A stretch of DNA of 64,000 bases from Candidatus Raymondbacteria bacterium RIFOXYA2_FULL_49_16. Lineage in GTDB: Bacteria > Fibrobacterota > OXYB2-FULL-49-7 > XYB2-FULL-49-35. Positions 22,639 through 54,455 of this stretch are shown in pieces. Every line of letters begins with the position of its first letter. Position 1 is the stretch's first letter. The stretch lies in the NCBI GenBank assembly GCA_001789205.1, contig MFYT01000039.1, forward strand, positions 105,639 through 169,638. The letters are read 5' to 3'. Both the position numbers and the translations under genes were made by a program. The notes below the pieces were generated by a model, which had not been told where the DNA came from, ran no database searches, and saw only the letters and a program-made list of their open reading frames with translations.

Positions 22639-24294
22639 TTATTTCATCAATATCAGACGTTTTTCCATGGTCTGAGCGCCTATTTGCGCTCTGGCAATGT
22701 ACATGCCCGAGGGAAGATGAGATGCGTCCCAGGTAATACACGTTGGCAACTGGCAGTTGGCCCGCGAAGCGAGGCGAGCAGCTGACAGCTTCTGGAGACG
22801 CTTCCCATGTATGTTCAAAATATTTATTTCTATCATCTCTTCACCTGCAATCACCCGCCCGTGTATCGTTATTCTTGTGCTTGGATTAAGGGGATTGGGG
22901 CATGCTTCCATAATGGGACAATCCCATTCCGGCGAGGCGGGCGCTGGTGCGGCGCGGGTATGAGACTGCTTGACAATAAGTACTCGGCGATACCGCGTCA
23001 GGGCAGGACTGCCGTTGTCTGTCACGATGAGCACCACGTGGATTGTGTCAGTATCGTCAATATCTGACGGTACGAGTACATTCGCCGTCTGCGCGGTTGA
23101 ATCCGCTATATGGACCAGGCCATTGTATGTCCCGGCTTCCCGGTAGTACTCCCAAACGTACGATAGCGCATTGCCGTCAGGATCGCTGGAGCCTGCGGCG
23201 CTGAGCGGCACCGTGCTTCCCGGAGAAGCCTCAATGGTCAGATGGGTAAGGTCATCACTGCCGTTCACCACGGGAACGGGTTCATGATTGGCTTGGGAAA
23301 ATCCTTTTACGCACCAGTCCATGCGCGCCTTGAAATCGTTCTGCAAATGGACTGCCCAGCGTTTGAGCGTGTTGTCGCGGTTGGTGCTCCCCTGCCAGGC
23401 GTCCTGCTGGTCCGGCCACGTATATTGAGGACCCCTCGCATAGGGTCCATTGTCAGTGGCACTGTACCGTCCTGCCCATCCTCCCCATTGCGGGCGCATG
23501 GGCTCGCACAGTCCGTTGGGAATGACCAGCAGAAATTCATGCGTGTCTCCCTCCTTCTGGATCGTATATAACGCACCAAGAGGACCATGGTTCGTCAGGA
23601 CATCCGCGGTAATATTGAACCCGCCCGCGTTATAGGTAAGCGGCTCGAACCGGTGATACCATCTGGAGCCGAACGCTTCGCACGGATAGGTCCCGCATTT
23701 TGTGTATGTTAGAATTCGCCAGAGCGGTATTATTGAAGTATCATGGGCCCCGAATTTGGGATCGCCGTTTATCCTGATTTTGTTCTTGAACGCTTCATAT
23801 CCGGCCTGACCGCGTTCCGCAAGGACCTTGTCGAGTGCGCGCCACAAGCTGGATTTTGTTCCGTCGTCCGCACCCCAGTTGGAGAACCACACGGGACGCG
23901 GGTCAGCCTTATCCACGGCCGCTATGATCAGATTAACGCCGTCGTCAACAGTATTGTATCCGGCAACGGTACGGTCCCAGAGAAACTGTTTAGCGGGAAA
24001 ATCCGCCTTATGCTGTTTCAGTGAATCGTACACCTCTCCGTAGGCGTTCACATAGCTTTGCACAATCGCCAGACCGGTTGGTAGCGGATTGGGATTGTCC
24101 GACCGGGTAACAGGCCGCGTGGCAATAATGCCCTCAATGTCCCATTCATTGGCATACAAGAACCAGCGTACCAGAGAAGCTTCATCATCAGGGTCGCCAC
24201 CAGCATCGGTTTCAATAATACAACGAATTTTTTCAGCATAACCGGTTGCCGCGAAAACAGTTATGCAAAAAATAATACATATTTTCTTCAGCAT
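22639..24294 (-). CDS. secreted DUF1593-family nucleoside hydrolase-like protein with sorting domain
   Basis: A 551-residue exported protein. After the signal peptide (FAATGYAEK), IIETDAGGDPDDEASLVRWF is the DxDxxDD-like metal-binding start of the inosine-uridine nucleoside hydrolase fold as found in the DUF1593/cellulose-binding group. WAVHLQNDFKARMDWC closes the catalytic-type domain; an Ig-like domain follows (GSSDPDGNALSYVWEYYREAG) and then the sorting domain with NPLNPSTRI and EKRLILMK. Family members are secreted by plant-polymer degraders; a true reaction is not known. The sorting domain carries an unusual insertion (see the repeat at 22744). Confidence 0.78.
   Translation of the reverse strand: MLKKICIIFCITVFAATGYAEKIRCIIETDAGGDPDDEASLVRWFLYANEWDIEGIIATRPVTRSDNPNPLPTGLAIVQSYVNAYGEVYDSLKQHKADFPAKQFLWDRTVAGYNTVDDGVNLIIAAVDKADPRPVWFSNWGADDGTKSSLWRALDKVLAERGQAGYEAFKNKIRINGDPKFGAHDTSIIPLWRILTYTKCGTYPCEAFGSRWYHRFEPLTYNAGGFNITADVLTNHGPLGALYTIQKEGDTHEFLLVIPNGLCEPMRPQWGGWAGRYSATDNGPYARGPQYTWPDQQDAWQGSTNRDNTLKRWAVHLQNDFKARMDWCVKGFSQANHEPVPVVNGSDDLTHLTIEASPGSTVPLSAAGSSDPDGNALSYVWEYYREAGTYNGLVHIADSTAQTANVLVPSDIDDTDTIHVVLIVTDNGSPALTRYRRVLIVKQSHTRAAPAPASPEWDCPIMEACPNPLNPSTRITIHGRVIAGEEMIEINILNIHGKRLQKLSAARLASRANCQLPTCITWDASHLPSGMYIARAQIGAQTMEKRLILMK
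22744..22792. repeat. palindrome-rich GC insertion inside a sorting domain, related to the 46637/49730 element
   Basis: A stretch with GCGAAGCGAGGCGAGCAGC, sharing GCGAGGCGAGC with the element at 46671-46684, flanked by short palindromes (CAACTGGCAGTTG on its left side, CAGCTG on its right). In protein it adds about eleven residues (around ARLASRANCQL) between two strands that are close together in the other sorting domains. It looks like a divergent relative of the mobile palindrome. Confidence 0.4.
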
Positions 24295-24387: not shown

Positions 24388-25899
24388 CTAAGATAGGCTT
24401 TTTTCCTTCTTCCGATAGTCAGAGGGGGTTGTTCCAACGGCCTTTTTAAATACCGTGGAGAAGTGTTCCAGGGAATTATACCCAGCTTCCATGGATATTT
24501 CCGTTATGGACTTTTCTGTACCGGAAAGAAGGCATTGGGCCAGCGTAATCCGTTCCGTGTTGAGGTATTGGGGAAAGGTCATGCCGGTTTTCTGGTTGAA
24601 GAGTATGGAGAACTTTCCCTTGTTAACCGCAATAATCCTGGCTGCATCCTCAATGCGCAAATCAGCGTTTCCGAGGTTTTCTTTAATGTGCAGCAATACC
24701 GCATCCAGGGGGTCTCCGATCGGGTGCATCTTGGGTGCGCTACGGACCTTCCGCAGTATTACTATAAACGCAAAAAGGACGATACCCGCGCAGATGAGGA
24801 GTACAAGCATGCATGGTCGGTTGTGGTTTCTGACGAAAACCAAGTTTCCCCATTCAGAGGGAAAATCGTTGGCCGCAATTGAAACGCCGCTCCAGGTGGT
24901 CCGTATGCATTTGCCGTCTTCGCGTTCCCAGTTTCCATTGAAAAAATCAAACCCAATAGTATCATTGTTTCGGGGAATTGGCATGCGCAATTCGGTCCAG
25001 GGAATGAACAACTCAACGGTATATCCGGAATCCCGGTCTGAATAGTTGTTCACGGTCCCGAGTATTTGAACCGCTTTCCGGACACCTGTTCCCCAGATAT
25101 ACACCTGCCCGTTTTGGTAATCGAAAACATTCCCCTGGGTCGAATCCACAGATATGATTATCTCGCAGTCACCGGTGTCGCGATATACGTTCCGGTCGTG
25201 GACCCGGTCAAAACACAGTTCAATGTTATCGTCGTACCACAGCGGAATAATCCGTGTCGCCGACCCTTCGAATTCTTCTGAAAGCGGCAGCCGCGGTGAG
25301 ATTGCCGTGAGGTGGCGGTCGTGGACCATGCTTGCGAAGTAAAGCCCGGTTTCGTTCCAGAAAGACCAGAGCGATATCAGGTTGTCGGTTGAGAGCGTCA
25401 GTACCGGCGCCAGTTGCCGCCACTCATCGAGTACGCCGTCTATGCGAATATTTTTTTTCAGATACGGGACGTTTAGGGCAATGGTTTTATATTCCTGGTT
25501 CCGGTCAAAAAAGAGGGGGCGTGATGATTCGGGAAAAACCGTGTCTGTCCCAGACCCCTGCAAAAAAATGACCGCCATAAGCCACTTTTGTTTAAGGTAT
25601 TGGTCGGGTATGCCGTGGCAGTCCCAGGCAAATTCGTAGGGTGGAACAGCAACCGGGCCGATCCGTAAAAAAGGGCTGCTCTGCGCGTTGAATGTATTGA
25701 AATTTTTTGTTTCGGCCATGCGATAATAAAAGACCACGGAATCGGCCTTCAGGGTATCGATATCCACCTCAAGCCTGACCCGGTCGCCTGTAACCACGGA
25801 AAACGGTGCGGGTTTAATGAATCGGGGTGCGGCGCAGAGTGTAAGCGCAAAAAGAGGAATACCGAGGACCCGCAGATATGGCATACGGGTAAAATACAT
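24388..25899 (-). CDS. membrane-spanning AraC regulator with a CBM9-like ectodomain
   Basis: 503 residues in one chain: a signal/anchor sequence (LFALTLCAAPR), a large extracytoplasmic domain (about residues 30-370) with the family 9 carbohydrate-binding-like pattern (IRIDGVLDEWRQL, YTVELFIPWTELR, FNGNWEREDGK), one membrane helix (MLVLLICAGIVLFAFIVILR, about 375-395), and a C-terminal AraC HTH (about 410-500, AGYNSLEHFSTVFKKAVGTTPSDYRKKE). It therefore senses an extracellular or periplasmic ligand, probably sugar, and binds DNA from the membrane. It is divergent from the radical SAM operon, with a palindrome between them. Confidence 0.88.
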   Translation of the reverse strand: MYFTRMPYLRVLGIPLFALTLCAAPRFIKPAPFSVVTGDRVRLEVDIDTLKADSVVFYYRMAETKNFNTFNAQSSPFLRIGPVAVPPYEFAWDCHGIPDQYLKQKWLMAVIFLQGSGTDTVFPESSRPLFFDRNQEYKTIALNVPYLKKNIRIDGVLDEWRQLAPVLTLSTDNLISLWSFWNETGLYFASMVHDRHLTAISPRLPLSEEFEGSATRIIPLWYDDNIELCFDRVHDRNVYRDTGDCEIIISVDSTQGNVFDYQNGQVYIWGTGVRKAVQILGTVNNYSDRDSGYTVELFIPWTELRMPIPRNNDTIGFDFFNGNWEREDGKCIRTTWSGVSIAANDFPSEWGNLVFVRNHNRPCMLVLLICAGIVLFAFIVILRKVRSAPKMHPIGDPLDAVLLHIKENLGNADLRIEDAARIIAVNKGKFSILFNQKTGMTFPQYLNTERITLAQCLLSGTEKSITEISMEAGYNSLEHFSTVFKKAVGTTPSDYRKKEKSLS

Positions 25900-25900
25900 G

Positions 25901-25938
25901 TTTCAATGCATTGAAAAAAATGACAATAAGTATATGAT
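25901..25938 (+). promoter_or_regulatory. palindrome and promoter before the radical SAM peptide operon
   Basis: TTTCAATGCATTGAAA (25901-25916) is a perfect 16-base palindrome just two bases before the divergent AraC start. Its right half contains TTGAAA (25911-25916), which with TATGAT (25933-25938) and a 16-base spacer makes a sigma70-like promoter towards the radical SAM gene. A protein bound to the palindrome would control this promoter and possibly the AraC gene. Confidence 0.5.
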
Positions 25939-26041
25939 TTTAACCAATCGTTGTATGTATATGTTCTTACTGAACTGGCTTTTTTTCCCTTGTTATCGTG
26001 GTCCAGGAGGGTTATTTTTTTAAAGAAGAGGACGAATTTAC

Positions 26042-27241
26042 ATGCGGAATATGGAAAGCGTGGGCCTGTCTCGCCATCGTGTCCGCTACGAATCTTTCGG
26101 AGGAATACTTTCTTCAACCGACCCGCCTTTTCTTGCATGGGTTGATCGCACATTTCTCAGAGACGCCGGCTACGAAGAAAGTCCTTTATGGCATACAGAT
26201 GACCCAGGGTATCTTTCGGCCCCCACTGAAGCGCATTTCTCAATAACAGAAAAGTGCAGCAGCGGATGTGCGGGGTGCTACATGGATTCTTGCGGAGAGA
26301 CTGCCGTTGATCTTTCCCTTGAAGAGGTAAAGGCCGTTCTTGATACCTTGCGTGCCATGGGCGTCTTTCATGTGGCGTTAGGGGGTGGGGAGGCTTTTGA
26401 ACGGCCGGACTTTGAGGACATTGCCGCCTACTGCCGCGAAATCGGCCTGGTCCCAAATCTTACCACCAATGGACAGCGAATGGGTGACCGCGAAATCGGC
26501 ATATGCAGAATGATGGGTCAGGTAAATGTGTCCCTGGACGGGCTGGAAAGCCACTATGGAGTAAACGGAAGAGCCGGGAGCTTTGAGCGGGCAGACCAGG
26601 CGTTGCGGAAACTCCGCGCCGCTGGCATTGCGGCAGGTATAAATTGTGTTGTATCTGTGAAAAATTATTCCCATATCAAAGATATAGCGGAATACGCCTG
26701 CACCCGCGGACTGGCGGAAATTGAATTCCTTAAATACAAGCCCTCGGGCAGAGGAAAAGACCGGTACCCGGATTTCGCGCTCAGCCAGGAGATGATCCGT
26801 TCTTTTTATCCGCGTATCCAGGAAATCGCCGCATCCCTGCCTGTGGAAATTAAAATTGACTGTTCCTTTATTCCGGCAATGATGTACCATCACCCTCCTC
26901 TTGAAGAACTGGAGAAATGGGCGGTGGCTGGCTGTGACGGAGGAAACATGCTTTTGGGAATACGAAGCAGCGGTGTTTTTTCCGCCTGTTCTTTTATTTC
27001 AAACAATGACGCCGAAAGCGCTTTATCCCTTAAAACACACTGGCACACCTCAGCGCACCTTTCACGATTCAGACGATGGACACAAAACCCTCCCGAACCC
27101 TGCGCGTCGTGCACCTATCTAACCATCTGCAGGGGTGGATGCCGGGCAGTGGCATTATATTATAACCATGATTTCTCCTCGCCCGACCCTGAATGTCCGT
27201 TCGTATACGATTATATGTGCTGTAAAGGAGCCCTTAAATGA
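26042..27241 (+). CDS. radical SAM/SPASM peptide-modifying enzyme
   Basis: A 399-residue cytoplasmic enzyme. The radical SAM cluster motif is C72-S-S-G-C76-A-G-C79 (CxxxCxxC), with GGGEAFERPD (GGE motif) and NLTTNGQ after it. The C-terminus has SPASM-type cysteines at about residues 298, 316, 354, 357, 363, 367, 385 and 393/394, including CASCTYLTICRGGC, that would bind two extra [4Fe-4S] clusters. The N-terminal 70 residues (RYESFGGIL...DPPFLAWVDR) may be a substrate-recognition part. SPASM enzymes mature small peptides; the gene overlaps a 57-residue peptide gene by four bases (ATGA), so a peptide substrate is very likely. The exact chemistry is unknown. Confidence 0.92.
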   Translation: MRNMESVGLSRHRVRYESFGGILSSTDPPFLAWVDRTFLRDAGYEESPLWHTDDPGYLSAPTEAHFSITEKCSSGCAGCYMDSCGETAVDLSLEEVKAVLDTLRAMGVFHVALGGGEAFERPDFEDIAAYCREIGLVPNLTTNGQRMGDREIGICRMMGQVNVSLDGLESHYGVNGRAGSFERADQALRKLRAAGIAAGINCVVSVKNYSHIKDIAEYACTRGLAEIEFLKYKPSGRGKDRYPDFALSQEMIRSFYPRIQEIAASLPVEIKIDCSFIPAMMYHHPPLEELEKWAVAGCDGGNMLLGIRSSGVFSACSFISNNDAESALSLKTHWHTSAHLSRFRRWTQNPPEPCASCTYLTICRGGCRAVALYYNHDFSSPDPECPFVYDYMCCKGALK

Positions 27242-27411
27242 ATAAACCAGTCATTCTGCCTGAAGGCGTCTTAAAAATTAAAAGAGGATATAATCCCAAC
27301 TCAAGCAGTATCGGCAGCGTTGTATACAGTTTTCCCTATGCCTTTATAGCTTTAAGCGCGGTTCTCGCCGTGATCGCGCTTTTAAAAAAGAAGAAAGATA
27401 AAACCCCATGA
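27238..27411 (+). CDS. 57-residue candidate precursor peptide 1 with conserved LKIKxGYNPNSSSIG box
   Basis: A short gene not found by size filters, overlapping the radical SAM stop by four bases (ATGA) and the next gene's start by four (ATGA), with GTAAAGGAG upstream. The protein has a variable start, the box L12-K-I-K-R-G-Y-N-P-N-S-S-S-I-G26, a hydrophobic membrane segment (about residues 28-49) and a basic tail KKKKDKTP. The same box is in the second peptide at 30639. There is no signal peptide; the positive tail suggests the C-terminus stays in the cytoplasm and the box faces outward. It is the likely substrate of the radical SAM enzyme. Confidence 0.8.
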   Translation: MNKPVILPEGVLKIKRGYNPNSSSIGSVVYSFPYAFIALSAVLAVIALLKKKKDKTP

Positions 27412-28835
27412 GTCTTCCAAACGCCGCGGCAATTGCCGCGTGCCTTTTCTGCGGGGTATACGCTCAGCCTTTTTCAGCCCTCAGCCAGGGGACCGCGAAA
27501 GACGTGTTTTCTTTTCAAAAGGAACTGCGCACTGCTCTGGAAAACCCATACAAATATTTTCATACCGGCGCTTTTATTGCTCTCATAGATCCGGTCATCA
27601 GCGATAGTACCGCCATTGTGAGCGATATTCCAGCCGATTCCATAAAGACGCTGCTGGAACAGGCCCGCGCCCGGCACTCCTATCCCCTTGTATTTGTCTT
27701 TAGTCTTCTGTATGCGTCGGCCAGCGCTGGTACGTCCTCTAAAACCGAATGCGCCTGTTTAAACGAAGCGGCAAGCCTCGCCTTCCGACGGCTCAGCAGG
27801 CCCCATGAAGCGCTTCGCATTTTCAAAGCAGCTTCTTTACGGGGATGCGAAGGGTCGTATGATTCAGCCGAAACGGTTGACCGCTATATCGAAAGCGATA
27901 TGAGCATTGACGCCCTGTTAAAGGAAAAGTTCTACCGGAAGGACAGTGTGGAAAAAGAGCGGTATGTATCAGCCCTCATCGCCGATCTCACCGCCCATCC
28001 GCATTCCTCTCTCCGAATGGAAGCGATGAAACGGCTGGGCGATGTCTATTTTGATCTTAAAAATTATCCGAAAATGAAACGATGGTATTTGAAAGTCCTG
28101 CAGACCGACCCGTCCCTGCGCAAGACTACGCCAATCGGATACCGGCTTACTATCGGAGACAGCCATATCAAACGCACTACCATACTGTATTTATTTTACG
28201 CATCCTACCTGTTTCTGGGATTTTTTCTTTTACGGCGCATACGGAGCGGGGGTGGCATTGATACAGCCTTTCTGTTCAAACGCTTCTCCCTATTCGCCCT
28301 AGCGCTACTACTGTTCGGCATAGTGCTGTTCTTGGCCGACCTGATACTTTTTAAGCGGACAATCGGCGAACTGCTCAAGCAGGAGTCGTTCGCCTTGCGC
28401 TTCACCGATCCGGTAGTCCCGCTGAGCTTTCTTGATGTTGTTCCGCGAATCCTCCTGATAAAAATATTCTGTATTGGCCTGGCACCGCTTCTGTTCGCCA
28501 CGCTCTGCAGCGCCACGAACAAATCCCGCTCCCGGCTTACCGGAAGTGCGGCGCTGCTGGTTTTCACCGCTGTACTATGGGGGCATTTTACCGTCGCCAG
28601 TTTCTATAACGAATACCTGTATAATGACGGCATCATCCTCAAGAGCCGCTACCTCTACTCAGGCGAAATTGAATCGCTGCTGATGAACGACCTGGATAAA
28701 GTGATTAAAGCAAACCCGGATTTTTTCTTTAAAAGCAAAAATTCCGATCTTCGGGTTTTTATACGCAAGAACTTTTCAGAAGAGATGCGCAGCAAAACGC
28801 CCATGGGAGACTATTATCGTGAACAGAGACGCTGA
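27408..28835 (+). CDS. exported TPR-like protein with four membrane segments (unknown function)
   Basis: 475 residues. An N-terminal signal sequence ends near VYAQP (residue 20). Residues 30-240 form a helical TPR-like region (for example LRMEAMKRLGDVYFDLKNYPKMKRWYLKVLQTDP), followed by membrane segments at about 258-276, 292-314, 347-368 and 378-398 and a soluble tail with many charged residues. I know no named family for it. Start and stop overlap its neighbours, so it is made together with the peptides. It could hold, present or process the peptides at the inner membrane. Confidence 0.75.
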   Translation: MSLPNAAAIAACLFCGVYAQPFSALSQGTAKDVFSFQKELRTALENPYKYFHTGAFIALIDPVISDSTAIVSDIPADSIKTLLEQARARHSYPLVFVFSLLYASASAGTSSKTECACLNEAASLAFRRLSRPHEALRIFKAASLRGCEGSYDSAETVDRYIESDMSIDALLKEKFYRKDSVEKERYVSALIADLTAHPHSSLRMEAMKRLGDVYFDLKNYPKMKRWYLKVLQTDPSLRKTTPIGYRLTIGDSHIKRTTILYLFYASYLFLGFFLLRRIRSGGGIDTAFLFKRFSLFALALLLFGIVLFLADLILFKRTIGELLKQESFALRFTDPVVPLSFLDVVPRILLIKIFCIGLAPLLFATLCSATNKSRSRLTGSAALLVFTAVLWGHFTVASFYNEYLYNDGIILKSRYLYSGEIESLLMNDLDKVIKANPDFFFKSKNSDLRVFIRKNFSEEMRSKTPMGDYYREQRR

Positions 28836-28836
28836 T

Positions 28837-30642
28837 ATGCGATTCCTGCCGCTTTTGGCCTGTTTTCTTCTGCTTGTCTGCGGACCGCAAAGGCACGGGG
28901 GTACGCTGCCTGAACTCACCGTCATCGACCGCTTTTCCGCCAGCATAGAATGGAGCACGGCAAACGCGATCCGGGGTATGCTGTTGTATGCCGCGGAAGG
29001 CGAGACCGAACGGACCATAACCGAAGAAACCCGGACAACGTTTCATCACATAACCATATCAGGCCTGCTTCCCGATAAAGTGCATACCTACCGGATCAAC
29101 AGTGGTCCTGATCATACATACCGTTTCCGCACTGCTCCGGGAGCCACATCGTCTTTCAGGTTCGCGCTTATTGAGACATATGAGAAAACCCTGCAACAGG
29201 CATATCCCGATTTTGTCATTATTACTAGCGCCGATTCACACGTCTGCCGTGAAATCATAAAAAAATATGCGGACCTCCATACCGGAACCGCCTTTTATTA
29301 TGGAACGTTTGCCTTTACCTGGGGAAACAGCACATTTTCTTCAGATACAATAATCGACTCAAAAAGTGAAAATCGTTTTTTGCTGGCTGCCACACAGTTG
29401 CCCGAATCCGCTGACAGCAATACGGCCTTGATTGTCCTTGATAAAAAAGCCCCATTGGGGATTGATACAACAGACCAGGCAATAACGGTGCATACCGCCG
29501 GGACAGCGTTGCTGTTTGAAGTGCAGGGTCCTGAAATTATCGCATCATTGATTAACACTGCATCCAACAACCCTGCCGAACTTACTGTGCGCCGGGGAAG
29601 CCTCGATTATAAGAAAAGCTGCGTCTATTGCCGCCGTCTTCTTGAAGACCGGAAATACCATGAAAGCATCAGGTGGTATCGGCGGTTCATGGAGAACGAT
29701 ACCGCTACTTCGCGTATCGACGATGCGTTATACCAGGTAGCCTATATATACGATCATTATCTCTTTGATTATCCCAATGCGGTTTCTTCCTATCAGGAAC
29801 TGGTGGACCGGTTTCCAGAAAGCAGCAAGGTCCGTACCGCCAGGTTCAGGATATCTTATATCAGCACTCATGCTGACCACGGATTTGAACCGCTTAAAGT
29901 GTTTGAGCGCGCCCGGCTTTCCCGTTTTCAGATAAATAGTGAGGAGTCTGCCCGTGAAGTAGAGGAACTTTTATCGAAATATCCGGGGACCTCCCTTGAA
30001 AAGGACATTCTTTTCTGGCTTGGTAATGTCTATGCTCCGGCGCATTCTGAGAAAGCGCTTTCCTGCTTTCTCCGCCTGGCCAAAGACAGCAATGCGGAGA
30101 CCGCGTGGCGCGGAGGAATGGCCGCAGCAGACCTGTATTATCGCGACAGCAGATATACAGAAGCGCGACAGCAGTATATATTGCTCAGGTCTTACGCCGG
30201 CCAGGACCGGGCGGCCCTGGAAATAAAAATCAGCAGGTGCATACGAAATGCCCGTAGAGAAGTTGTCAGAATAGTTTTCCTGATATTCACCCTTGCCGTC
30301 ATGCTCGCGTCACTTTGTATAAAGCCCCGTCCCGCGGCTGCCGCTCTATGTACGCGGTTCCTCGCTTTTCTTGCGGTTTACGCTGTGGCAGCAGCGCTGC
30401 CCTTTTTGATCTGGAAAGACTTTCTCATGCAAGCAAAGAACTTTACCCTCGCGGCAATACCCGTACTGGCGTTTTCCTCAACGCTGATCAAAGAACGGTT
30501 TCCGCTTTTTTTTGCTGGAATAGACAACACGGTTTTACGCCTTTGCGTATCTCTTGCCGCGGCGTGTATGTTTACGCTGGGTATAATATACCTTTTGTTG
30601 TATTATTTTCATTATCTCTTTATTGTTGAAGGCATAGTATGA
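28837..30642 (+). CDS. envelope protein with FN3-like domain, TPRs and C-terminal membrane segments (unknown function)
   Basis: About 601 residues from the ATG at 28837, one base after the upstream stop; a GTG at 28819 is an earlier option. A hydrophobic start with a cysteine (LLLVCGPQ) may be a lipoprotein signal. Residues about 25-110 match the N-terminal FN3-like domain of purple acid phosphatases (ITISGLLPDKVHTYRI). Residues about 270-470 are TPR-like (ALYQVAYIYDHYLFDYPNAV, CxxC in SCVYCRR) and four hydrophobic segments follow (about 480-600). It ends at an ATGA overlap with the second peptide gene. No function is assigned. Confidence 0.75.
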   Translation: MRFLPLLACFLLLVCGPQRHGGTLPELTVIDRFSASIEWSTANAIRGMLLYAAEGETERTITEETRTTFHHITISGLLPDKVHTYRINSGPDHTYRFRTAPGATSSFRFALIETYEKTLQQAYPDFVIITSADSHVCREIIKKYADLHTGTAFYYGTFAFTWGNSTFSSDTIIDSKSENRFLLAATQLPESADSNTALIVLDKKAPLGIDTTDQAITVHTAGTALLFEVQGPEIIASLINTASNNPAELTVRRGSLDYKKSCVYCRRLLEDRKYHESIRWYRRFMENDTATSRIDDALYQVAYIYDHYLFDYPNAVSSYQELVDRFPESSKVRTARFRISYISTHADHGFEPLKVFERARLSRFQINSEESAREVEELLSKYPGTSLEKDILFWLGNVYAPAHSEKALSCFLRLAKDSNAETAWRGGMAAADLYYRDSRYTEARQQYILLRSYAGQDRAALEIKISRCIRNARREVVRIVFLIFTLAVMLASLCIKPRPAAAALCTRFLAFLAVYAVAAALPFLIWKDFLMQAKNFTLAAIPVLAFSSTLIKERFPLFFAGIDNTVLRLCVSLAAACMFTLGIIYLLLYYFHYLFIVEGIV

Positions 30643-30812
30643 ATCATTCCAAAGGCCGCATTCTTAAAATTAAAACCGGGTATAACCCGAATTCCAGTTC
30701 AATAGGAACGCATGTTTCTTATTTTATAAAAGGCATGTCCGCGTTCGCGGTACTCATTAACGGCATCATGGCCGTTCTGTACACGTTCCGCGAGAAAAGG
30801 AAAAAGAAATAG
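30639..30812 (+). CDS. 57-residue candidate precursor peptide 2 with conserved LKIKxGYNPNSSSIG box
   Basis: A second peptide of exactly the same length. It starts within the upstream stop (ATGA) and ends five bases before the TlpA-like gene. The box is L9-K-I-K-T-G-Y-N-P-N-S-S-S-I-G23, followed by a membrane segment (about 28-50) and the tail REKRKKK. Of the fourteen shared box residues, ten use different codons from peptide 1, so the protein sequence is under strong selection. The membrane segments differ freely. Together the twins are the heart of the proposed system. Confidence 0.8.
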   Translation: MNHSKGRILKIKTGYNPNSSSIGTHVSYFIKGMSAFAVLINGIMAVLYTFREKRKKK

Positions 30813-30817
30813 CCGCT

Positions 30818-31324
30818 ATGAGCTTTTTTAAGATCATGAGTGTCTTTGCTATCTGCGCCGGCTGCATAGGCTGCGCCGGCCGCCGGGAACAAACAGTGGC
30901 CCCTGATTTTCTTCTGAATGATCTGCAGGACCGGAGATTTTATCTGAGCAGCTGCAAAGGAAAGGCCGTGCTTCTGAATTTCTGGTCTACTCATTGCGCA
31001 CCCTGCATGGAAGAAATGCCCCATTTGGAAAAACTCTATGGGGAATTCTCGAAACAGGGAGTGGTGTTTGCGGGAATATGCATTGATCCGGCGGAAGCAG
31101 GATATCTGGAAACGCTGGTACATGGTCTTGGCGTCACGTATCCTGTGCTTGCCGATATTTCAGGCCGGACAGCGGCGCTGTATGCGGTAACAGCCGTACC
31201 CGTAACCATTATCATCTCTCCGGAGGGTATGATACACAGCAGAACAACAGGATATAGGGAAGCGTATATACAGCGTTTCAGAGAACAGCTTGCCTCTCTG
31301 ACAGGCGCATCCGGGACACCATGA
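30818..31324 (+). CDS. TlpA/ResA-like thioredoxin, probable lipoprotein
   Basis: 168 residues. A hydrophobic start with cysteines (AGCIGCAGRR, residues 14-23) may be a lipid attachment site. The thioredoxin-like domain has the redox pair C60-A-P-C63 in NFWSTHCAPCMEEMPHLEK and the cis-proline in AVPVTIIISPEG. This is a TlpA/ResA-type reductase facing the periplasm. In the operon it would keep thiols reduced or make disulfides on a partner, perhaps the CxxC domain of the phosphoesterase encoded directly downstream (ATGA overlap). Confidence 0.88.
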   Translation: MSFFKIMSVFAICAGCIGCAGRREQTVAPDFLLNDLQDRRFYLSSCKGKAVLLNFWSTHCAPCMEEMPHLEKLYGEFSKQGVVFAGICIDPAEAGYLETLVHGLGVTYPVLADISGRTAALYAVTAVPVTIIISPEGMIHSRTTGYREAYIQRFREQLASLTGASGTP

Positions 31325-32889
31325 AGCGTTTCATTGTAACCAGTGCCCTTGCATGCGTCCTTGTCGCCGGACCCAAAGCCGCATCTGAATTTCTTATCAG
31401 GCCTTTTGTCCAATCCATAACCAAGGAGTCCGCCGCTATCTGCTTCTCTCTGCCGAACGATGCTGTTTCGCGCACGGTAATCGGCACGGCCGACAACGCT
31501 GAAACAGCCGTTTATACGGCGCATGAATCCTTAGTAAAAGCGCGTTTCACCGGTCTTAACCCGGAAACGAAATATTATTATACTGTTTCAGTCAATGGTA
31601 CAGAACTTCTATCGCCGCCAGGAGAGTACTATTTTTTTACCGGATCCGCGGCATTGGAAACGCCGGTGACCATCGCGGTATATGGTGATACGCGCAGCGG
31701 CGAGGAAAGTTTTGATCTTGACCATCGGTCGGTCGTGGAAAGCATACGTCATTATTCGTCTCCCGATCTTCTCCTGCATACCGGAGATGTGGTCAATACG
31801 CAGGATCCCGAAGGGTGGAACCGGTTTTTTCACATCGAACATGAGCTTTTAAAAAACACGCCGCTATATCCGGTACGGGGCAACAGTGACGGCGACCGGA
31901 CTGATATCCTGCATATGTTCGCGCTTCCCGGAGATACCACCTGGTATTCCTTCTCCGCGGGACCGGTATACTGCATCGCCCTTGATCTGCAGAATAATAT
32001 GACCGACAGCTATTATGCAAAACATATCGGCCCCGCAAGCGATCAGTGGAACTGGCTGACTCGCATGCTGGCCTCTGATGAACGGAAACGCTGCCCGTTT
32101 ACACTGGTCTATTTTCACGCCCCGCTTTTCCCTCCGGATGACGAAACCAGCCCGGCAATGAAAGACCATCTTGTTTCACTGTTTGAAAAAAGCAATGTGG
32201 ACCTTGTAATCAACGGCCAGCACTATTTTTCGTATGCCCAGCGGAATGGCGTAACCTATATGATAAGCGGCGGCGGGGGCGCCCTCCTTGACCGGTATCA
32301 GGCCAAACGATCAGCGTCGGTACGGGTGTATGAACCTGTTTTTCACCATCTGCGGATCACGGCAAACTATCCCGCGCTCACCATAGAAGCGGTAGACAAT
32401 GCGGGAACCGTCTTCTTCTCGCATTCCATTATCGCCTCTTCGCCTTCCCCGGGAAAAGAACAACCCCAGCCGGGCCTCACCGAAAACAGGATACCACTGC
32501 ATATTTTCGGCAGTAGTGGCTGCGCCGAATGTGATTTACTTAAAAACGTGCTGCTTCCTGAAATTGAAAAGTCGCTCGCGCCCTATACCTTCTCCATTAC
32601 TTTCTATGACACTGATATTCCCGAACACTATGAGCGGTTTCTCGTGTACGAGTCCCGTCTGGGCGACCGTAAGCACACCCTTCCTGCACTGTTATATGCC
32701 GACAGAATCCTGAGCGGCCCTGAACTTGACCTGCTTTCCCTGAAAGAGTTTTTTAAAAGCCGCGTCATGAGACAGGATAAAAACAGCGTCAAATCCCTTG
32801 GTTCCGAGAGGTATCCGATGTATCTTTATTTTATATTGGTTGCCGCAGGCATAGGGTTGTTCGTGTTTATTAAGAAAAGGAACGGATAA
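31321..32889 (+). CDS. metallophosphoesterase with FN3-like N-terminus, CxxC redox domain and membrane anchor
   Basis: 522 residues with a signal sequence. Residues about 25-110 are an FN3-like purple-acid-phosphatase N-terminal domain; about 115-370 form a calcineurin-like phosphoesterase with GDTRSG, HTGDVVN, GNSDGD, FHAPL and NGQHYFSY as metal-site motifs (His in the last is at the place of GHxH). From about 390 a glutaredoxin-like domain starts IPLHIFGSSGCAECDLLKN (CAEC), and a membrane segment with KKRNG ends the protein. The union of phosphoesterase and redox domain is unusual. It starts inside the tlpA stop and ends inside the next start codon. Confidence 0.82.
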   Translation: MKRFIVTSALACVLVAGPKAASEFLIRPFVQSITKESAAICFSLPNDAVSRTVIGTADNAETAVYTAHESLVKARFTGLNPETKYYYTVSVNGTELLSPPGEYYFFTGSAALETPVTIAVYGDTRSGEESFDLDHRSVVESIRHYSSPDLLLHTGDVVNTQDPEGWNRFFHIEHELLKNTPLYPVRGNSDGDRTDILHMFALPGDTTWYSFSAGPVYCIALDLQNNMTDSYYAKHIGPASDQWNWLTRMLASDERKRCPFTLVYFHAPLFPPDDETSPAMKDHLVSLFEKSNVDLVINGQHYFSYAQRNGVTYMISGGGGALLDRYQAKRSASVRVYEPVFHHLRITANYPALTIEAVDNAGTVFFSHSIIASSPSPGKEQPQPGLTENRIPLHIFGSSGCAECDLLKNVLLPEIEKSLAPYTFSITFYDTDIPEHYERFLVYESRLGDRKHTLPALLYADRILSGPELDLLSLKEFFKSRVMRQDKNSVKSLGSERYPMYLYFILVAAGIGLFVFIKKRNG

Positions 32890-33779
32890 TGAAATCACGA
32901 AACGTTTCATCAATAGCGGAAACACGGACTGTTTTTGTTGATCTGAAATGGATAAAGGGAATATTGTTTGGAATTCTTTTTATGTTTATTGTCCCGCTGG
33001 CGCTATCATGCTCAAAAGAAACTTCCGGTACATTCAATCCCGCAGACCATTATTTAAAAATAGAAGAACTCAGGGCCGCTAAACCGCTGGACTTGCACAA
33101 AATTGAAAGCATATACACCACACAACTTGCACCGCGATATCACACGGCCTATCCCGCTATTCACGCATCCATCCTTGAAGCTATGAGGAAAGGGGAGGCC
33201 GGAGAAAACGTGCGTGTGCAATCGCAGACCATAAGCAAGGAGCTGCAGAAGATTTTCTACCGGGAGCTTGCCGCCTCGCTCAGCGCGCTTGAAGCGGAAG
33301 CAGACCCTGCGATGTATGCGCAGGAACTTGAAAGGGCGAAATCCGCGTATGCGTGTTTAAAACCGCTGTCTAAGCGCAGGAGCGAATGGCTGAAGAACGG
33401 CACAGCGTTTGACGACCTTTTCGCGTCAGCCTTCAGCACTTTGGCCTCAATGCCTGGCAAAGAAACCGTAAAAAAAACATGTGATCGGATCATTTTATTA
33501 TTTCGCGACATTTTCATTTACTCTGTTTTTTATGAACTGTTCGGCATAGAGACGTCACGGGGAACAGATAACATCACATGCGAAGAGAAAATGGCTGAAG
33601 CAAGGATCTTTCTGGAATCAGCTCTGCCATTCTGCAGGCAACAGCAGTTCTGCGTGCCGCTGGCAACAGCGTTTCATAAGGACTATAGGGACCTGGATAT
33701 TGAAAAAACCAGGGAAGACTTGTTTGCCGCGTTCCCAGGGCTGGATACGCACGCAGTGTTGAAAGCGTCCGGGAAATAA
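32889..33779 (+). CDS. lipoprotein-like protein of unknown function
   Basis: 296 residues, last gene of the peptide operon, starting on the last base of the upstream stop (TAATG). The N-terminal 50 residues hold a hydrophobic segment ending LALSCSKET, a plausible lipid attachment site but with a long front part. The remainder is helical, with a middle part rich in Glu/Ala (ELAASLSALEAEADPAMYAQELERA) and cysteines in CDRIILLF, TCEEKM, FCRQQQFC. No family is recognised. Its conserved place in a tightly coupled operon suggests a structural or accessory role. Confidence 0.65.
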   Translation: MKSRNVSSIAETRTVFVDLKWIKGILFGILFMFIVPLALSCSKETSGTFNPADHYLKIEELRAAKPLDLHKIESIYTTQLAPRYHTAYPAIHASILEAMRKGEAGENVRVQSQTISKELQKIFYRELAASLSALEAEADPAMYAQELERAKSAYACLKPLSKRRSEWLKNGTAFDDLFASAFSTLASMPGKETVKKTCDRIILLFRDIFIYSVFYELFGIETSRGTDNITCEEKMAEARIFLESALPFCRQQQFCVPLATAFHKDYRDLDIEKTREDLFAAFPGLDTHAVLKASGK

Positions 33780-33818: not shown

Positions 33819-35846
33819 TTATCTTAGCAGCACCGCGCGCTTGGTATACACAATTCCATTGACGCATATGCGGATTATGTACGTTCCGGATGGCATGTTT
33901 CGGGCGTTCCAGGTGTATGCGTGCGTACAAGCGGTATTCACAGTACGTTTATTGTACAGGAACGAGGTCCCCGCATTGTGTACGCATACGCCTTGCACAT
34001 TATAAATGCGCAAGGTTGGGCTGGTTGCGGCGGGTAATCCATTTGTTGGATCAGGTGATAAACCCGCCCCAATAAATATGGATATCACCATAACTGGATT
34101 AAACGGGTTTGGTTCCACTGTTACAGCCATATCATTCTGCGTTGAGGCCGATATGCCCGCTCCGGTTGTTCCTCCGCACGAGCTTTTGTCTTCGGGCGTA
34201 TTATAATCGGCAGAATAAAACCACACTTCCTGTGGAGCAACAAGCGTATCATTACCTGAATAGAGTTCAAGATCAAAGGACAGGTCAGAGCTTGTAGAGC
34301 TCACCTGATGGACCTCTGCCGCAATGACATTCCCGCCATTCCGGAAATGCGATATAAAAGAGGTGATGTCGTTGACCGCGAATGCCGATCCCTCGTGATC
34401 TCCGGAAGCAAAAGTGCTGTACGTCACTTCACCCGGAAGCATGGATCTGCGGGCGATCTCGTATCCATTCAAATAGACCACAACACCATCATCATATTTT
34501 ACTCCTAGCGAACAGGACGAAAAGGCGGACGCATCATCAATAAAAAAACTTTTCCTGAAATAGGCCGCATCCACATGAGGTATCACGGTGTTTTCGTCCC
34601 CATCGCCATAGCCGATTTCAGCCGTCCCCGTTGACCAGCTTCCATCGTCATATCCCTGGTCTTTCCATGTAACGGTATAACAGAGTGTGTCAATGGTAAA
34701 AGTAATAACACGGCTTGTATCCATCACATTGCCTGAATCATCGACCGCGCGCACATAGAAGGTATATGCCATGTCATTTTCCAGAGAAAGAGTTGTTGTA
34801 TGGATTTTTGCGCCCTCTCCGGTGACAAACTGATTGGCCATTTCATAATAAGATTGGTCGGACATGCTCCAGCGAACAAAGGCGTTTTCCTGCGTCTCAA
34901 CCAGCACTATCACTTCCGTGGTGTTTACGGTACCCGATGGTTTGCTATCTGTAACATACGGCGCCAATGAATCGGGGCCTAGTATCCAGTAATCGGTCAT
35001 GGCCCAGGAATCATTATTAAAAGGGCAGGCCACCGTCATAAATCTCAGATTTGCCCCATCAACCTCGACATATACAATAGTATTATTATTATCACCACCC
35101 GTAATGCCCAAGGCGCCCGCGTCAATCTGGTATATGCCTCCGGGTTCATCCGGATAGCACAGACCGTCAAACGCACAGGCGGAATGGGGGTCAAGCACCC
35201 TCATTCTGCAGAAGGAATGGGTATGTCCGACCATAATACCCTTGACTTTTGTACCGTGTGAAAGCAGCATGTTCCACAGATCGTCCGCCCAGGCAGCTGG
35301 TGGTCCGGCATATCTTCCGCGGGGAAACGCCGGACCATGAAATGAAATGAATACATGATCTGCGAAATCCGCATCCGTGATCAGGCTGTCCATCCAGTTG
35401 ATCCAGGTTGCCTGACCAAGCCCGGAATACTGGTCAAAAACAATGATTCTCACGTTTTTCCAGTCCACGTAATAATTACACCTGTTGTCTCGCAGGACAA
35501 CACTGTCAAGAGACGGGAGTATTGTATCGAGCATAAGGTCAACATCAGCAGGGGTCTCGTCATCATGATTACCCATGACCGGATAATAGGGGGGCGCCTG
35601 GTATTGCGGATCCTGTACGATGCCCCAGTTTTCATTTGCCAGGTCCAGATCACCGGCAGCGACAATGAATTCCGCTTTGGGAAATGGAACGGTCTCGTTA
35701 ATGGTCATATCCCTGATTTCGGTGAGCATATACCGTACGCCAGTATGCCATCCGCAATTGTCGGCCACAAGTGCAAAGGTCCACTTTTGGCAGAATGCCG
35801 ACACTGTCAGAAGATATATACAAAGTGTTATAAGGATGTGCTTCAT
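33819..35846 (-). CDS. secreted metallophosphoesterase with beta-sandwich and sorting domain
   Basis: About 675 residues from the ATG at 35846, which begins the signal peptide MKHILITLCIYLLTVSAFCQ; a start at 35867 is possible. The calcineurin-like domain (about residues 20-280) has LVADNCG, AAGDLDLAN, MGNHDDET, SFHGPAFP and GHTHSF. After it come a strand-rich region with Ig-like pattern (AYTFYVRAVDDSGN) and a beta-sandwich (DQGYDDGSWSTGTAEIGYGDG, DDGVVVYLNGYEIARR) that resembles carbohydrate-binding domains. The C-terminus is a sorting domain (EPNPFNPVM to TKRAVLLR). Its paralogue lies next to it. The extracellular substrate is unknown. Confidence 0.8.
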   Translation of the reverse strand: MKHILITLCIYLLTVSAFCQKWTFALVADNCGWHTGVRYMLTEIRDMTINETVPFPKAEFIVAAGDLDLANENWGIVQDPQYQAPPYYPVMGNHDDETPADVDLMLDTILPSLDSVVLRDNRCNYYVDWKNVRIIVFDQYSGLGQATWINWMDSLITDADFADHVFISFHGPAFPRGRYAGPPAAWADDLWNMLLSHGTKVKGIMVGHTHSFCRMRVLDPHSACAFDGLCYPDEPGGIYQIDAGALGITGGDNNNTIVYVEVDGANLRFMTVACPFNNDSWAMTDYWILGPDSLAPYVTDSKPSGTVNTTEVIVLVETQENAFVRWSMSDQSYYEMANQFVTGEGAKIHTTTLSLENDMAYTFYVRAVDDSGNVMDTSRVITFTIDTLCYTVTWKDQGYDDGSWSTGTAEIGYGDGDENTVIPHVDAAYFRKSFFIDDASAFSSCSLGVKYDDGVVVYLNGYEIARRSMLPGEVTYSTFASGDHEGSAFAVNDITSFISHFRNGGNVIAAEVHQVSSTSSDLSFDLELYSGNDTLVAPQEVWFYSADYNTPEDKSSCGGTTGAGISASTQNDMAVTVEPNPFNPVMVISIFIGAGLSPDPTNGLPAATSPTLRIYNVQGVCVHNAGTSFLYNKRTVNTACTHAYTWNARNMPSGTYIIRICVNGIVYTKRAVLLR

Positions 35847-35955
35847 ACTATATTGATTCAGCCTCATGCAAGGCGCCTATACATGGAATATTAAAATTGC
35901 CAATTTTCATTTGCAAGAACCGTAATAAATAATCACTAAAGTCACGAACCTGTTT

Positions 35956-38331
35956 TTAGTTTAGCAATATCAATTTTTTTGACATCATTACCTTGCCATT
36001 ACAATGAACTTTTAATACATATATGCCTGCCGGCATATCAGATGCGTCCCATACGGCTGTTAACGAGCTTTTTATTGCCGCAGTTACTGAAGCAATCGAA
36101 GCAACCCTCCTCCCTTTTACATCAAACACGTCAAATCGCGGGGTGGCATTCTTGCCGTTAGGATTTTGCATTATAAAGCCCATGTTTTTAATCGATATTG
36201 TTGTTGATGGATTGAAGGGGTTTGGAGAAACGTCAACCCCTATGTCCGATAAAAACCCGTTAGAAGTATATGCCTCAGTAACAAGATCCGGGGGCATGCA
36301 ACCCTCGTCATGATAGGACCATTCGCTCTCAAGACCAAACAGATCGCTGTTGTTTATTGCCAATCTGGCGGCAAAGGTAAAAAAAGTATTATTGGCCGGT
36401 TTTTTATGCACTTCTATTGCCAGGGTATTTGTTCCGTTTATTAAAAGATCTGAATATTCTGAAATATCCGCATTTAAAAACAACCATCCTGCCGTATCAG
36501 CGGCCCAGGTGTCGTATGTCACCGGCCCTTCGGACATTTCAGCCCTCAGCACTTCGCGGCCGTTAAGATATGCCACCGAACCATAATGCAAATTCTGGTA
36601 CAGCTGCAACCTGGTCACCTCGGAAACATCAGGTATGTTAAAAAGTTTCACGAAATATGCCGCATTTATCCCTGATGCAAGAGGCGTATTGCTGCTGTAA
36701 TTACCGAAACGGGCCAGCCCGGCGCTCCAGCCGGGTCCGGTGGTAGTATAACCTGGATTTTTCCATTGCGGTCCGCTAATGGAAGTGTCATAGACAAAGG
36801 TAATGATCTCAGGGGCTGATTCATTGCCCGAATCATCTTTCGCGCGTAGATACACTGTTTTGGTGGTTGAATATTGACAATCAACATTTGCCGTATGAAC
36901 AACACCGCCGGTAATGGTAAACATATTTTCCATCTCTGCATACGATCGGTCTTCGAGGTCCCACTTTACTGTGGCATTTTCATTCGTTGCTGCCATAAGC
37001 TCCGCAGGACAGGCATGTATTACTCCTCGAGGCCCGGCCGAGACAAAGCGCGGGTCATAATAGTCGTTTGTGTCCGCCAGAAACGTAATGACCGCGGACG
37101 TGTCCATTATATTTGGCGTTGGTTCATCATCAGCCGCCCGGATATAAAGAGTCTTTGTTTCCCCCTGCAGACAGGTAATGACCGTGCTGTGTAAAACGTC
37201 TCCGGTAATAGAAAATGTATTGGCCATACTGCCGTATTCCTGGTTGGTATAGCTCCATTTTACCGTAGAGTTCTCATTCGTATTTACTGTAATGACCGCA
37301 TCAAGAGATCGTACGGTATCAATCATGGACAGGCCCGGAGAAAAAACGGTAAAATAAGGCGCCTCCCTGTCCGGTGCGTCATTTACCGTCCAGAGATTCG
37401 CTATCTGCCAATCAGGATCATCGGCCTCCCAATTCCACAGACCTTTTTTCACCATAAAAGTAACGCTGTCATCATCAACCTGGATCCAGACAATTCCCAT
37501 TCGCGGATCGTTCATTGCTATGCCGACATGTCCTGGATCTATCTGCCATATGCCGTCATCTTCATGCGCCCTGATATCAGTCCTCTCCGCGGTCTCATAA
37601 CATCCGGTATCAGTTGCGCAGGGTCCGTCAGGATCTTTTATACGAAGAATATCGTACCAGTGGGTGTGGCCCACAAGAACACCTTTAACTTTATTGCCGT
37701 GAGAGATAAGCATGTTCCAGAAATCTGGGACCCAGCTCCCTCTGCCTTCGATTGATGTATGGCGCTGCCGTGCAAATGCGGGACAATGAAAAGCGATAAA
37801 AACATGTTTATTATTACCGGCTCCCGCAATCATGCTGCTGACTGAGTCTATCCAGCCGGTTTCTCCCCAGAAAGCGGTATACTGATCAAGGACAATCAGG
37901 CGAACGTTTTTCCAGTCTACATAATAGTTAAGGCCATCGCTAAAAACCGTCGTGCTGTCCTGCTTAACAAGAATGGAATCAACCATATATTCAACACAGG
38001 TCACGCCGCTCACTGCCGAACACCCTGATTCAACATCATGGTTCCCGTTAACAGGGAAATAGGCAACGCCATTGCTGTTGGCCCTCACCACATCATATAG
38101 AAGGCTATCTCCCACGGAGCTTGCTAGGCTAAGGTCGCCCCCAGCCACAATAAACTCAGCTTTCGGAAACGCAGGAGATGTATTTACCGTAGCATTAGTC
38201 AGTTCTTTGCAGGCCCATCGTACTGGTTTTTCACTGGTCAGATTATCGGCATAATAACCGAAGCTCCATTTTTCACCAAACGCAACGGTGCTCAATAGAA
38301 GAATAATTGTAATCAGCAGGTAATTTGTCAT
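35956..38331 (-). CDS. second secreted metallophosphoesterase with beta domains and sorting domain
   Basis: 791 residues with a signal peptide (LLLSTVAFGEK). Catalytic-type motifs are GYYADN, AGGDLSLAS, NGNHDVES, AFHCPAFA and GHTHWY. Two Ig-like repeats follow (both contain an ...E(N)xTVKWxxxxxxY pattern: STVKWSYTNQEY and ATVKWDLEDRSY), then a beta-sandwich (WSAGLARFGNYSS, YGSVAYLNGREVLRAEM) and the sorting domain (SPNPFNPSTTI to SKKLILLN). It is clearly paralogous to the previous gene (same start, same domain order, same sorting domain type). The pair flanks the peptide operon's own phosphoesterase but on the other strand. Confidence 0.8.
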   Translation of the reverse strand: MTNYLLITIILLLSTVAFGEKWSFGYYADNLTSEKPVRWACKELTNATVNTSPAFPKAEFIVAGGDLSLASSVGDSLLYDVVRANSNGVAYFPVNGNHDVESGCSAVSGVTCVEYMVDSILVKQDSTTVFSDGLNYYVDWKNVRLIVLDQYTAFWGETGWIDSVSSMIAGAGNNKHVFIAFHCPAFARQRHTSIEGRGSWVPDFWNMLISHGNKVKGVLVGHTHWYDILRIKDPDGPCATDTGCYETAERTDIRAHEDDGIWQIDPGHVGIAMNDPRMGIVWIQVDDDSVTFMVKKGLWNWEADDPDWQIANLWTVNDAPDREAPYFTVFSPGLSMIDTVRSLDAVITVNTNENSTVKWSYTNQEYGSMANTFSITGDVLHSTVITCLQGETKTLYIRAADDEPTPNIMDTSAVITFLADTNDYYDPRFVSAGPRGVIHACPAELMAATNENATVKWDLEDRSYAEMENMFTITGGVVHTANVDCQYSTTKTVYLRAKDDSGNESAPEIITFVYDTSISGPQWKNPGYTTTGPGWSAGLARFGNYSSNTPLASGINAAYFVKLFNIPDVSEVTRLQLYQNLHYGSVAYLNGREVLRAEMSEGPVTYDTWAADTAGWLFLNADISEYSDLLINGTNTLAIEVHKKPANNTFFTFAARLAINNSDLFGLESEWSYHDEGCMPPDLVTEAYTSNGFLSDIGVDVSPNPFNPSTTISIKNMGFIMQNPNGKNATPRFDVFDVKGRRVASIASVTAAIKSSLTAVWDASDMPAGIYVLKVHCNGKVMMSKKLILLN

Positions 38332-52991: not shown

Positions 52992-54455
52992 ATGGCGCGT
53001 CAGATACCGTTTCTTATTGCCCTTACAGCTCTTTCAGCCGTATTTCTTCATGCGGAATACCGTATAAACAGTCCGTCCCCATTTGCCATTGTCCGGACCA
53101 ACTGGCTCAAACTTCAGGTCATTTCCGGAGAAACAGACCCACGGCCTGATTCCATCGTCTATCAGATCACCTATCCAGATCCACGTACAAAGAGCGACAG
53201 TTTGTTGAATGTTTCCACGGCCTATCCCTTTGAATATCTTTATGATTTGAAGGACATGCACGACATGTTCATGACCATCCGCGCGCTTGCGTATGCGCAT
53301 GGCAGCGCGGAAACCCTGGGCCTGGAATATGGTTCTGGGGGTATTCCTATTGCCCTTGACCGGACAATGGTTGGCAGTCCCATGACCATGGTTTCATCAT
53401 ATTGGAGTGGCCGCACAGGGGCTGGCGCCTATCTGGAATCGAACTTGAAACCCATGTTCGAAAGCCAAAACAATAACGTTCAGTGCGCATCAGCGTGGAA
53501 CAGCGACTCCCTGTACTTCATGGTGCGTGTTGCGGACGCGAATGTCATGACCGTGGCCGAGACAACCGAAGCCTTTGGCAAGGAGAAGGACTATTTCCGG
53601 GTGTTATGGACCTCTGACGGCATAGAGCTCTGCTTTGACGTGCACAGAAACAGGACCGAATGGAAAGAGCTGGATGATTTTGAGATGCTCGTTAACGTAA
53701 CTGGCGCTTACCAGGGTAATGTATGGGACCAAAAAGAACACACACTGCTCCACTGGGGAAACGGGTGCAGGGTTGCGGTGAACGTATCTGGAACAGTCAA
53801 CAAGAACGATGATATAGACACAGGATATACAGTCTTTATAGCCATCCCCTTTTCAGGATTGAAATACAAGCCAGTGCCGGATGATATCCTGGGATTTGAC
53901 GCACAGCTTTTTGACCTGGACACTGAGCATGGTACTGTGTTCCGCACTATCTGGAGCAATTCAGAACAGAGCAATAACGACAACCCAAGCGAATGGGGAA
54001 GCCTTGTCCTGGCGGGCAAAGGGATGTCGGGTACGAGAAGGGCTGTCTTAGGTGTCACCGCAGGTATTTTCCTCTTCATATGCGCTTTCTTTTTCCTGCG
54101 AAATAAAAAGAAGAAGCCTATCGCAGAATACTCTCCGGCAATAATAAAAGCGATCCAATATATCCGGGAGAATTATAAAAATGATATCTTTCTTAAAGAT
54201 ATTGCTGGAGCATCAGGATTCTCAAAAGCCTATTTCAGCGCAATGTTCAGAAATGAAACAGGACAGGCTGTTATCGAATACTTGTTCGAAGTCAGGATTG
54301 AAAATGCATGCCGGATGCTGAAAGAAACGACCGAGTCTGTGACGCAAATTGGGTATGCGGTGGGATTCAAGGACCAGAGTCATTTTACCAAGGTTTTCAA
54401 GAAAAAAAAGGGGGTTACGCCAAACCAGTACAGGGAATCGAACCCACAGACCTGA
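52992..54455 (+). CDS. membrane-spanning AraC regulator with CBM9-like ectodomain
   Basis: 487 residues and paralogous to the regulator at 24388. Signal/anchor (LTALSAVFLHAEY), extracytoplasmic domain (about 25-350) with IALDRTMVGSPMTMV, SAWNSDSLYFMVRVAD, YTVFIAIPFSGLK and SEWGSLVLAGKG, membrane helix (AVLGVTAGIFLFICAFFFLR, about 353-372), and AraC HTH (IQYIRENYKNDIFLKDIA, IGYAVGFKDQSHFTKVFKKKKG). It senses an outer ligand, likely a sugar, and controls DNA directly. It is divergent from the FG-GAP gene and upstream of the next secreted protein gene, which are its likely targets. Confidence 0.88.
   Translation: MARQIPFLIALTALSAVFLHAEYRINSPSPFAIVRTNWLKLQVISGETDPRPDSIVYQITYPDPRTKSDSLLNVSTAYPFEYLYDLKDMHDMFMTIRALAYAHGSAETLGLEYGSGGIPIALDRTMVGSPMTMVSSYWSGRTGAGAYLESNLKPMFESQNNNVQCASAWNSDSLYFMVRVADANVMTVAETTEAFGKEKDYFRVLWTSDGIELCFDVHRNRTEWKELDDFEMLVNVTGAYQGNVWDQKEHTLLHWGNGCRVAVNVSGTVNKNDDIDTGYTVFIAIPFSGLKYKPVPDDILGFDAQLFDLDTEHGTVFRTIWSNSEQSNNDNPSEWGSLVLAGKGMSGTRRAVLGVTAGIFLFICAFFFLRNKKKKPIAEYSPAIIKAIQYIRENYKNDIFLKDIAGASGFSKAYFSAMFRNETGQAVIEYLFEVRIENACRMLKETTESVTQIGYAVGFKDQSHFTKVFKKKKGVTPNQYRESNPQT

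Follow-up and report, generated by a model that had tools for sequence, protein, structure and literature searches.

A candidate radical SAM/SPASM peptide-modification system with envelope-resident products, encoded by an eight-gene operon in a Fibrobacterota genome

Eight coupled genes and two twin peptides

The window analysed here, a stretch of 64,000 nucleotides from Candidatus Raymondbacteria bacterium RIFOXYA2_FULL_49_16 (Fibrobacterota), lies on contig C39 of a 5.43-Mb genome of 112 contigs with 40 radical S-adenosylmethionine (rSAM) genes and contains, at 26042–33779 on the forward strand, an operon of eight genes (A–H, Table 1). Its overlaps and close junctions match the open reading frames described in an earlier note on this DNA exactly, and the coupling through ATGA and TAATG junctions claimed there is borne out by gene calls; D starts with GTG and overlaps C by 17 bases. 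Judged from sequence, we consider it on balance likely that the operon specifies an undescribed rSAM/SPASM peptide-modification system whose products reside in the cell envelope.

The two peptides, pep1 and pep2, are both 57 aa long, share 46% identity and have in common a segment G..LKIKxGYNPNSSSIG (hereafter, its GYNPNSSSIG part is the box), followed by a hydrophobic stretch sufficient for one transmembrane (TM) helix and by a basic tail; the source genome holds these two copies only. Neither has a family match in Pfam, NCBIfam, PHROGs or PADLOC, in keeping with the earlier statement that no named family has this gene content, and neither contains cysteine, the core residue of sactipeptides.

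Table 1. Features of the operon and of the region upstream of it
Feature	Coordinates	Strand	Description	Evidence or remark
Intergenic region	25900..26041		Divergent intergenic region; best promoter-like site 25911-25938 (+)	10/12 match; number of sites not above shuffles
A	26042..27241	+	Radical SAM/SPASM enzyme	399 aa; PF04055 61.8 bits
B (pep1)	27238..27411	+	GVLKIKRGYNPNSSSIG, then TM helix, then KKKK tail	57 aa
C (TPR1)	27408..28835	+	Membrane protein; N-terminal signal, TPR region, TM segments	Putative pep1 partner; hhalign to family X
D (TPR2)	28819..30642	+	Lipoprotein-like; Fn3 + degenerate phosphoesterase-like N-half, CxxCR, TPR, TM segments	Putative pep2 partner; PF13174 above cut-off
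E (pep2)	30639..30812	+	KGRILKIKTGYNPNSSSIG, then TM helix	57 aa
F (TlpA)	30818..31324	+	TlpA/ResA-like thiol-disulfide lipoprotein, CAPC	PF00578 84 bits
G	31321..32889	+	Purple-acid-phosphatase-like N-domain + calcineurin-like domain + thioredoxin-like CAEC + one TM segment	PF00149 46.9 bits
H	32889..33779	+	Helical lipoprotein	Relatives between D and pep2 in several other phyla

Distribution of the box and order of the loci

An exact scan for GYNPNSSSIG over the DNA of named genomes, with phylum labels as attached to those genomes, returned 31 stretches; 30 were genuine, and the other, from Coatesbacteria (L053), was a chance DNA match in another reading frame. The labels span about ten phyla (Fibrobacterota, Planctomycetota, Desulfobacteraceae, Geobacter and other Deltaproteobacteria, Elusimicrobia, Spirochaetes, Clostridia, Myxococcota, Pontiellaceae, Bacteroidales and one Gammaproteobacterium), over which the box is nearly unchanged, relatives reading G[YFHML]NPNSS[SG][IVML][GA]. 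Its protein sequence is constant over 42 distinct DNA versions, with third codon positions free and serine codons mixed between TCN and AGY; this variation, together with the co-occurrence of enzyme and peptide, rules out chance or artefact as the origin of the box.

The rSAM family was found at E 1e-46 or better in 19 of 22 box-bearing genomes, 18 of which have exactly one such enzyme and one of which has it as two contig-edge fragments; two of the remaining three are cut at contig ends, and the third is the chance match. Among 167 Fibrobacterota genomes, the rSAM profile and the peptide profile each pick the identical seven, with no others by the peptide profile, for which the chance probability is 1/C(167,7) = 1.6e-12. 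Sampling that started from the enzyme gave 7/392 in Planctomycetota, all seven with the peptide, 1/395 in the phylum of Geomesophilobacter, 1/296 in the phylum of a Spirochaetales metagenome-assembled genome (MAG) and 53/282 in the phylum of a Myxococcota MAG; on a mixed set, the peptide profile found the peptide in 32/32 rSAM- or peptide-bearing genomes. That the box peptide should accompany rSAM and TPR genes in a number of genomes had been named beforehand as support for the reading; this association extends over about ten phyla, and neither of the two findings set beforehand to count against the reading, peptides from a known family or a gene order confined to this genome, was made.

Elsewhere, the usual order is D-(H)-pep2-TlpA-G-pep1-C/X-rSAM-(Y) (L057, L058, L059, L062, L067, L071), where X is a protein of ~420 aa encoded downstream of pep1 in other phyla, to whose family C belongs (hhalign 97.7%, E 2e-12, 315 columns), and Y is related to DUF2950 (up to 55.9 bits, cut-off 20.2). 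L064, L069 and the window show rearranged orders, and three genomes (G154, G170, G173) have the locus split between two places. The whole locus was seen in Desulfobacteraceae, Planctomycetes, Spirochaetales, Bacteroidales, Deltaproteobacteria and Myxococcota; Geobacter, Geomesophilobacter, Clostridia and three Fibrobacterota have a minimal form (L060, L061, L065, L019–L021) that reads C/X-pep-rSAM or rSAM-pep-C and in Clostridia adjoins an ABC transporter whose permease is of the FtsX type.

Y is a single-TM protein with a D.D.DG..Y segment, encoded after the enzyme in most non-Fibrobacterota loci (L057 9680-10333, L058 7943-8569, L062 10209-10838, L067 10458-11267). No DUF2950 gene lies beside the window operon, and none turned up in a search of the source genome, whose control was silent as well and which therefore does not demonstrate absence. 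The deltaproteobacterial genome bin617 (G179) has a second locus (L179 3563-10614 / L039) in which pep2-TlpA-G lies between four rSAM genes from a more remote branch, two per side.

The enzyme and its probable substrate

In A, the CX3CX2C cysteines of radical SAM enzymes (C72/C76/C79; PF04055 above cut-off) and seven SPASM cysteines of the kind that hold auxiliary clusters (298, 316, 354, 357, 363, 367 and 385) are invariant in 22 members. The AlphaFold2 (AF2) model (mean predicted local distance difference test (pLDDT) 91.2) matches SuiB best (Z 30.5), over residues 6–390 and thus including the N-terminal peptide-binding domain or RiPP recognition element (RRE; RiPP, ribosomally synthesized and post-translationally modified peptide), followed by SkfB (Z 27.1), PqqE (25.3), CteB (24.2) and TigE (22.6). 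Its N-terminus (residues about 12–51) is compact, with a predicted bbb-aa topology, and superposes on the SuiB N-terminal region; this RRE-like region is shortened, and its likeness to an RRE shows in the predicted structure, not in sequence statistics. On this model, A looks like a peptide maturase of the SPASM type whose N-terminus is RRE-like.

For all 22 enzymes, profile searches rank mycofactocin MftC (TIGR03962) and GeoRSP (TIGR04303) highest, with all NCBIfam models far under cut-off: A scores 133.4 bits against MftC (cut-off 265), 132.2 against GeoRSP (400) and 77.9 against PqqE (TIGR02109; 381.35). That MftC, GeoRSP, NirJ2 and PqqE are the nearest models could speak for a cofactor pathway like that of PQQ or mycofactocin, with the box excised to become a redox cofactor; we regard this as very improbable, given scores so far below cut-off, loci that hold neither Mft/Pqq partner genes nor a peptidase, and relatives in which the box tyrosine is swapped for Phe, His, Met or Leu. 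The same lack of a conserved aromatic residue disfavours an aromatic cross-link or cyclophane. A formylglycine-forming, anSME-like reaction was dropped because the column of the anSME catalytic base Asp277 holds an invariant Ser317, and matches of A to pVip reflect ordinary radical SAM similarity.

In the tree, a sister branch of enzymes from myxobacteria accompanies peptides that read GxxANCSSIGSVV or GRSPNCSAVGSVV before a TM helix. Aligned to the box, these keep Asn and Ser, and Ser and Cys alternate right after the Asn (N-C-S-S in Myxococcota). Since this residue is Ser in the window and Cys in the myxobacterial relatives, the modification could be a link through it (an ether or thioether to an alpha carbon), a proposal that we hold with considerable doubt. 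The SSIGSVV segment may resemble the TIGSVS motif associated with TigE; a literature search for that motif gave no relevant paper, and the Ile position varies to Val, Met or Leu. Sister-branch loci (L116, L119, L121, L123, L124, L126–L128, L137, L139) carry peptides for which no named family was seen.

In one myxobacterial genome (G1269; L110 / L133), a precursor-type peptide and the enzyme share one open frame with no stop between them, apparently as in a second (G1301; L126). These fusions, perfect co-occurrence, the RRE-like domain and a minimal module of TPR protein, peptide and enzyme only (L060, L061, L065) argue against an enzyme that modifies another protein or a small molecule, with the peptides as unmodified small subunits or adaptors. 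That alternative could appeal to the window peptides, which have neither the cysteines nor the repeated aromatic motifs of the better-known rSAM RiPPs, and we judge it unlikely. The genomic evidence, comprising gene coupling in addition to the four features just named, instead suggests that the enzyme probably acts on the peptides.

Putative envelope partners, proposed architecture and known systems

Outside the box, the peptides fall into two distinct paralogue classes over seven phyla, each with its own conserved TM part; the window has one peptide per class, pep1 in the pep1 class and pep2, less strongly, in the other. Every pep2 locus has a TlpA gene directly downstream, mostly overlapping, with G after it, and pep1 adjoins C/X in nearly all loci. 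The membrane-anchored peptide pair proposed earlier fits these data. Absence of a protease from the loci, together with joint conservation of box and TM part, suggests that the peptides probably stay in the membrane as uncleaved products. By contrast, in a conventional RiPP system they would be cleaved close to the box and leave the cell as signals or antimicrobials, with the envelope genes serving export and immunity. An rSAM/SPASM enzyme with an RRE-like domain beside small peptides would suit such a system, as would the clostridial ABC transporter; but the loci have no protease and, Clostridia aside, no exporter, the near-constancy of the box is unlike a diversifying bacteriocin and the TM part is kept by class, so that we think secretion improbable.

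The TPR proteins likewise come in two paralogous forms, a point that adds to the earlier description: D is homologous to X (hhalign 99.4%, E 4.5e-21) in its TPR and membrane half, in which C and D are paralogues. In its N-half, D has a degenerate version of the N-half of G (hhalign 98.9%, E 2.4e-17). The CxxCR motif of D (C268, C271) is invariant in 12/12 aligned sequences, and Foldseek matched BamD-type TPR and Fn3 folds; the D model is moderate (pLDDT 71), and no statement about fold is based on it. C and H gave only weak TPR matches in the four family databases, and H a weak FEA1-related match for one relative only.

The CxxC of TlpA is kept in 13/13 aligned relatives and most G proteins carry a CxxC as well; together with the CxxC of D, these support the redox steps foreseen in the earlier note. 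Many relatives of G have an extra DsbD/CcdA-like TM domain. Its phosphoesterase fared less evenly. A phosphoesterase-like domain is present, and the step itself is weakened because active-site residues are degenerate: in all 11 aligned G members, the motifs GNH[DE] and GHxH, well established as catalytic in this family, are replaced by GDND or GNSD-type and xWH or QH-type motifs, with D, GD and two His retained.

Immediately past the operon, two reverse-strand genes (33819-35867 and 35956-38331) encode further calcineurin-like phosphoesterases that carry C-terminal sorting tails of the Por type, and phosphoesterase-like genes likewise stand beside the peptide loci of genome G154 (L023, L024). 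On its other side, a divergent AraC-type gene with a CBM9-like sensor domain and a probable membrane anchor (24388-25899, reverse strand) is a candidate regulator; a similar gene lies at 52992-54455. The surroundings (22639-24294, 56099-59068 and 60574-62199) look like a plant-polysaccharide locus, with Sde182-like, DUF5060 and tagaturonate epimerase UxaE genes and several Por-tail proteins.

The proposed mechanism is as follows. The enzyme would bind each peptide through its RRE-like N-domain and modify the box before or during insertion, after which the peptides would stay in the membrane as subunits with a single span. Adjacency and paralogy both come in pairs, with the peptides and their TPR neighbours each in two versions (the two peptide classes and the homology of X and D), which suggests that pep1 would be seated on C and pep2 on its paralogue D. 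Conserved cysteines and gene coupling would place a thiol-disulfide relay on the pep2-D side, running from the DsbD-type domain, where present, through the thioredoxin domain of G and TlpA to the CxxC of D. Tentatively, and with less confidence than in the system as a whole, the radical-modified residues may act permanently as genetically encoded functional groups, either a cofactor or a covalent link, within tiny membrane-spanning subunits; the complex to which these belong would sit in the envelope and consist of two peptide/TPR pairs and the relay.

Several observations weigh against this interpretation. A few Myxococcota relatives of the enzyme have no recognisable peptide nearby, and most loci come from MAGs. 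Peptide topology is ambiguous, the N-terminus being positive and the C-tail of the window peptides positive too, and a peptide-enzyme fusion would place the peptide C-tail on the side of the enzyme. Some G proteins (L067, L062, L069) have lost thioredoxin and DsbD cysteines, and thus the relay can at times be dispensed with.

Known rSAM RiPP systems mostly yield secreted products or cofactors. Here, peptide modification would instead build part of a membrane machine, and resident membrane subunits, duplicated and each with its own TPR partner, would, if true, widen the use of radical SAM peptide chemistry. The peptide family is unnamed; its near-invariant box spans about ten phyla and goes with one rSAM family and a conserved envelope locus. 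The three-gene version found in Geomesophilobacter sediminis Red875, which as a named strain is presumably cultured, makes the system testable. The combination of rSAM enzyme and peptide is of a known kind; the architecture is new to us and may have been mentioned before, a literature search that did not extend to subscription papers and supplements having found no relevant paper on the box motif, its myxobacterial variants or the gene content.

The TVG system (TvgA/TvgB), from a network survey of SPASM enzymes (PMC9062424), also pairs a SPASM enzyme with a conserved peptide motif on which it acts; it differs in a repeated TVGG motif and in a peptidase/transporter, and GYNPNSSSIG is not described in the main text of the survey. 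Mycofactocin and GeoRSP enzymes give the best profile matches, yet at about half the cut-off or less, and neither MftA, B and D nor GeoRSP partner genes were seen. With anSME, A shares the SPASM fold (Z 23.8) and the alternation of Ser and Cys at one presumed-substrate position; it differs at the catalytic base, and the box is unlike the anSME motif C/S-x-P/A-x-R. Relays of the ResA/TlpA-CcdA/DsbD type are similar in the TlpA CxxC, the thioredoxin domain and the DsbD-like TM domain; here, by contrast, they come with a fused phosphoesterase-like domain and are reserved for a peptide/TPR locus. Closest are SuiB/SuiA, SkfB, CteB, PqqE and TigE, which resemble A in the whole-enzyme fold including the N-terminal peptide-binding region, in the SPASM cysteines and in a small peptide encoded alongside. 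Unlike SuiB/SuiA-type systems, the present one has single-span membrane peptides with an apparently uncut, conserved box, in two paralogue classes that accompany paralogous TPR proteins and a putative thiol relay.

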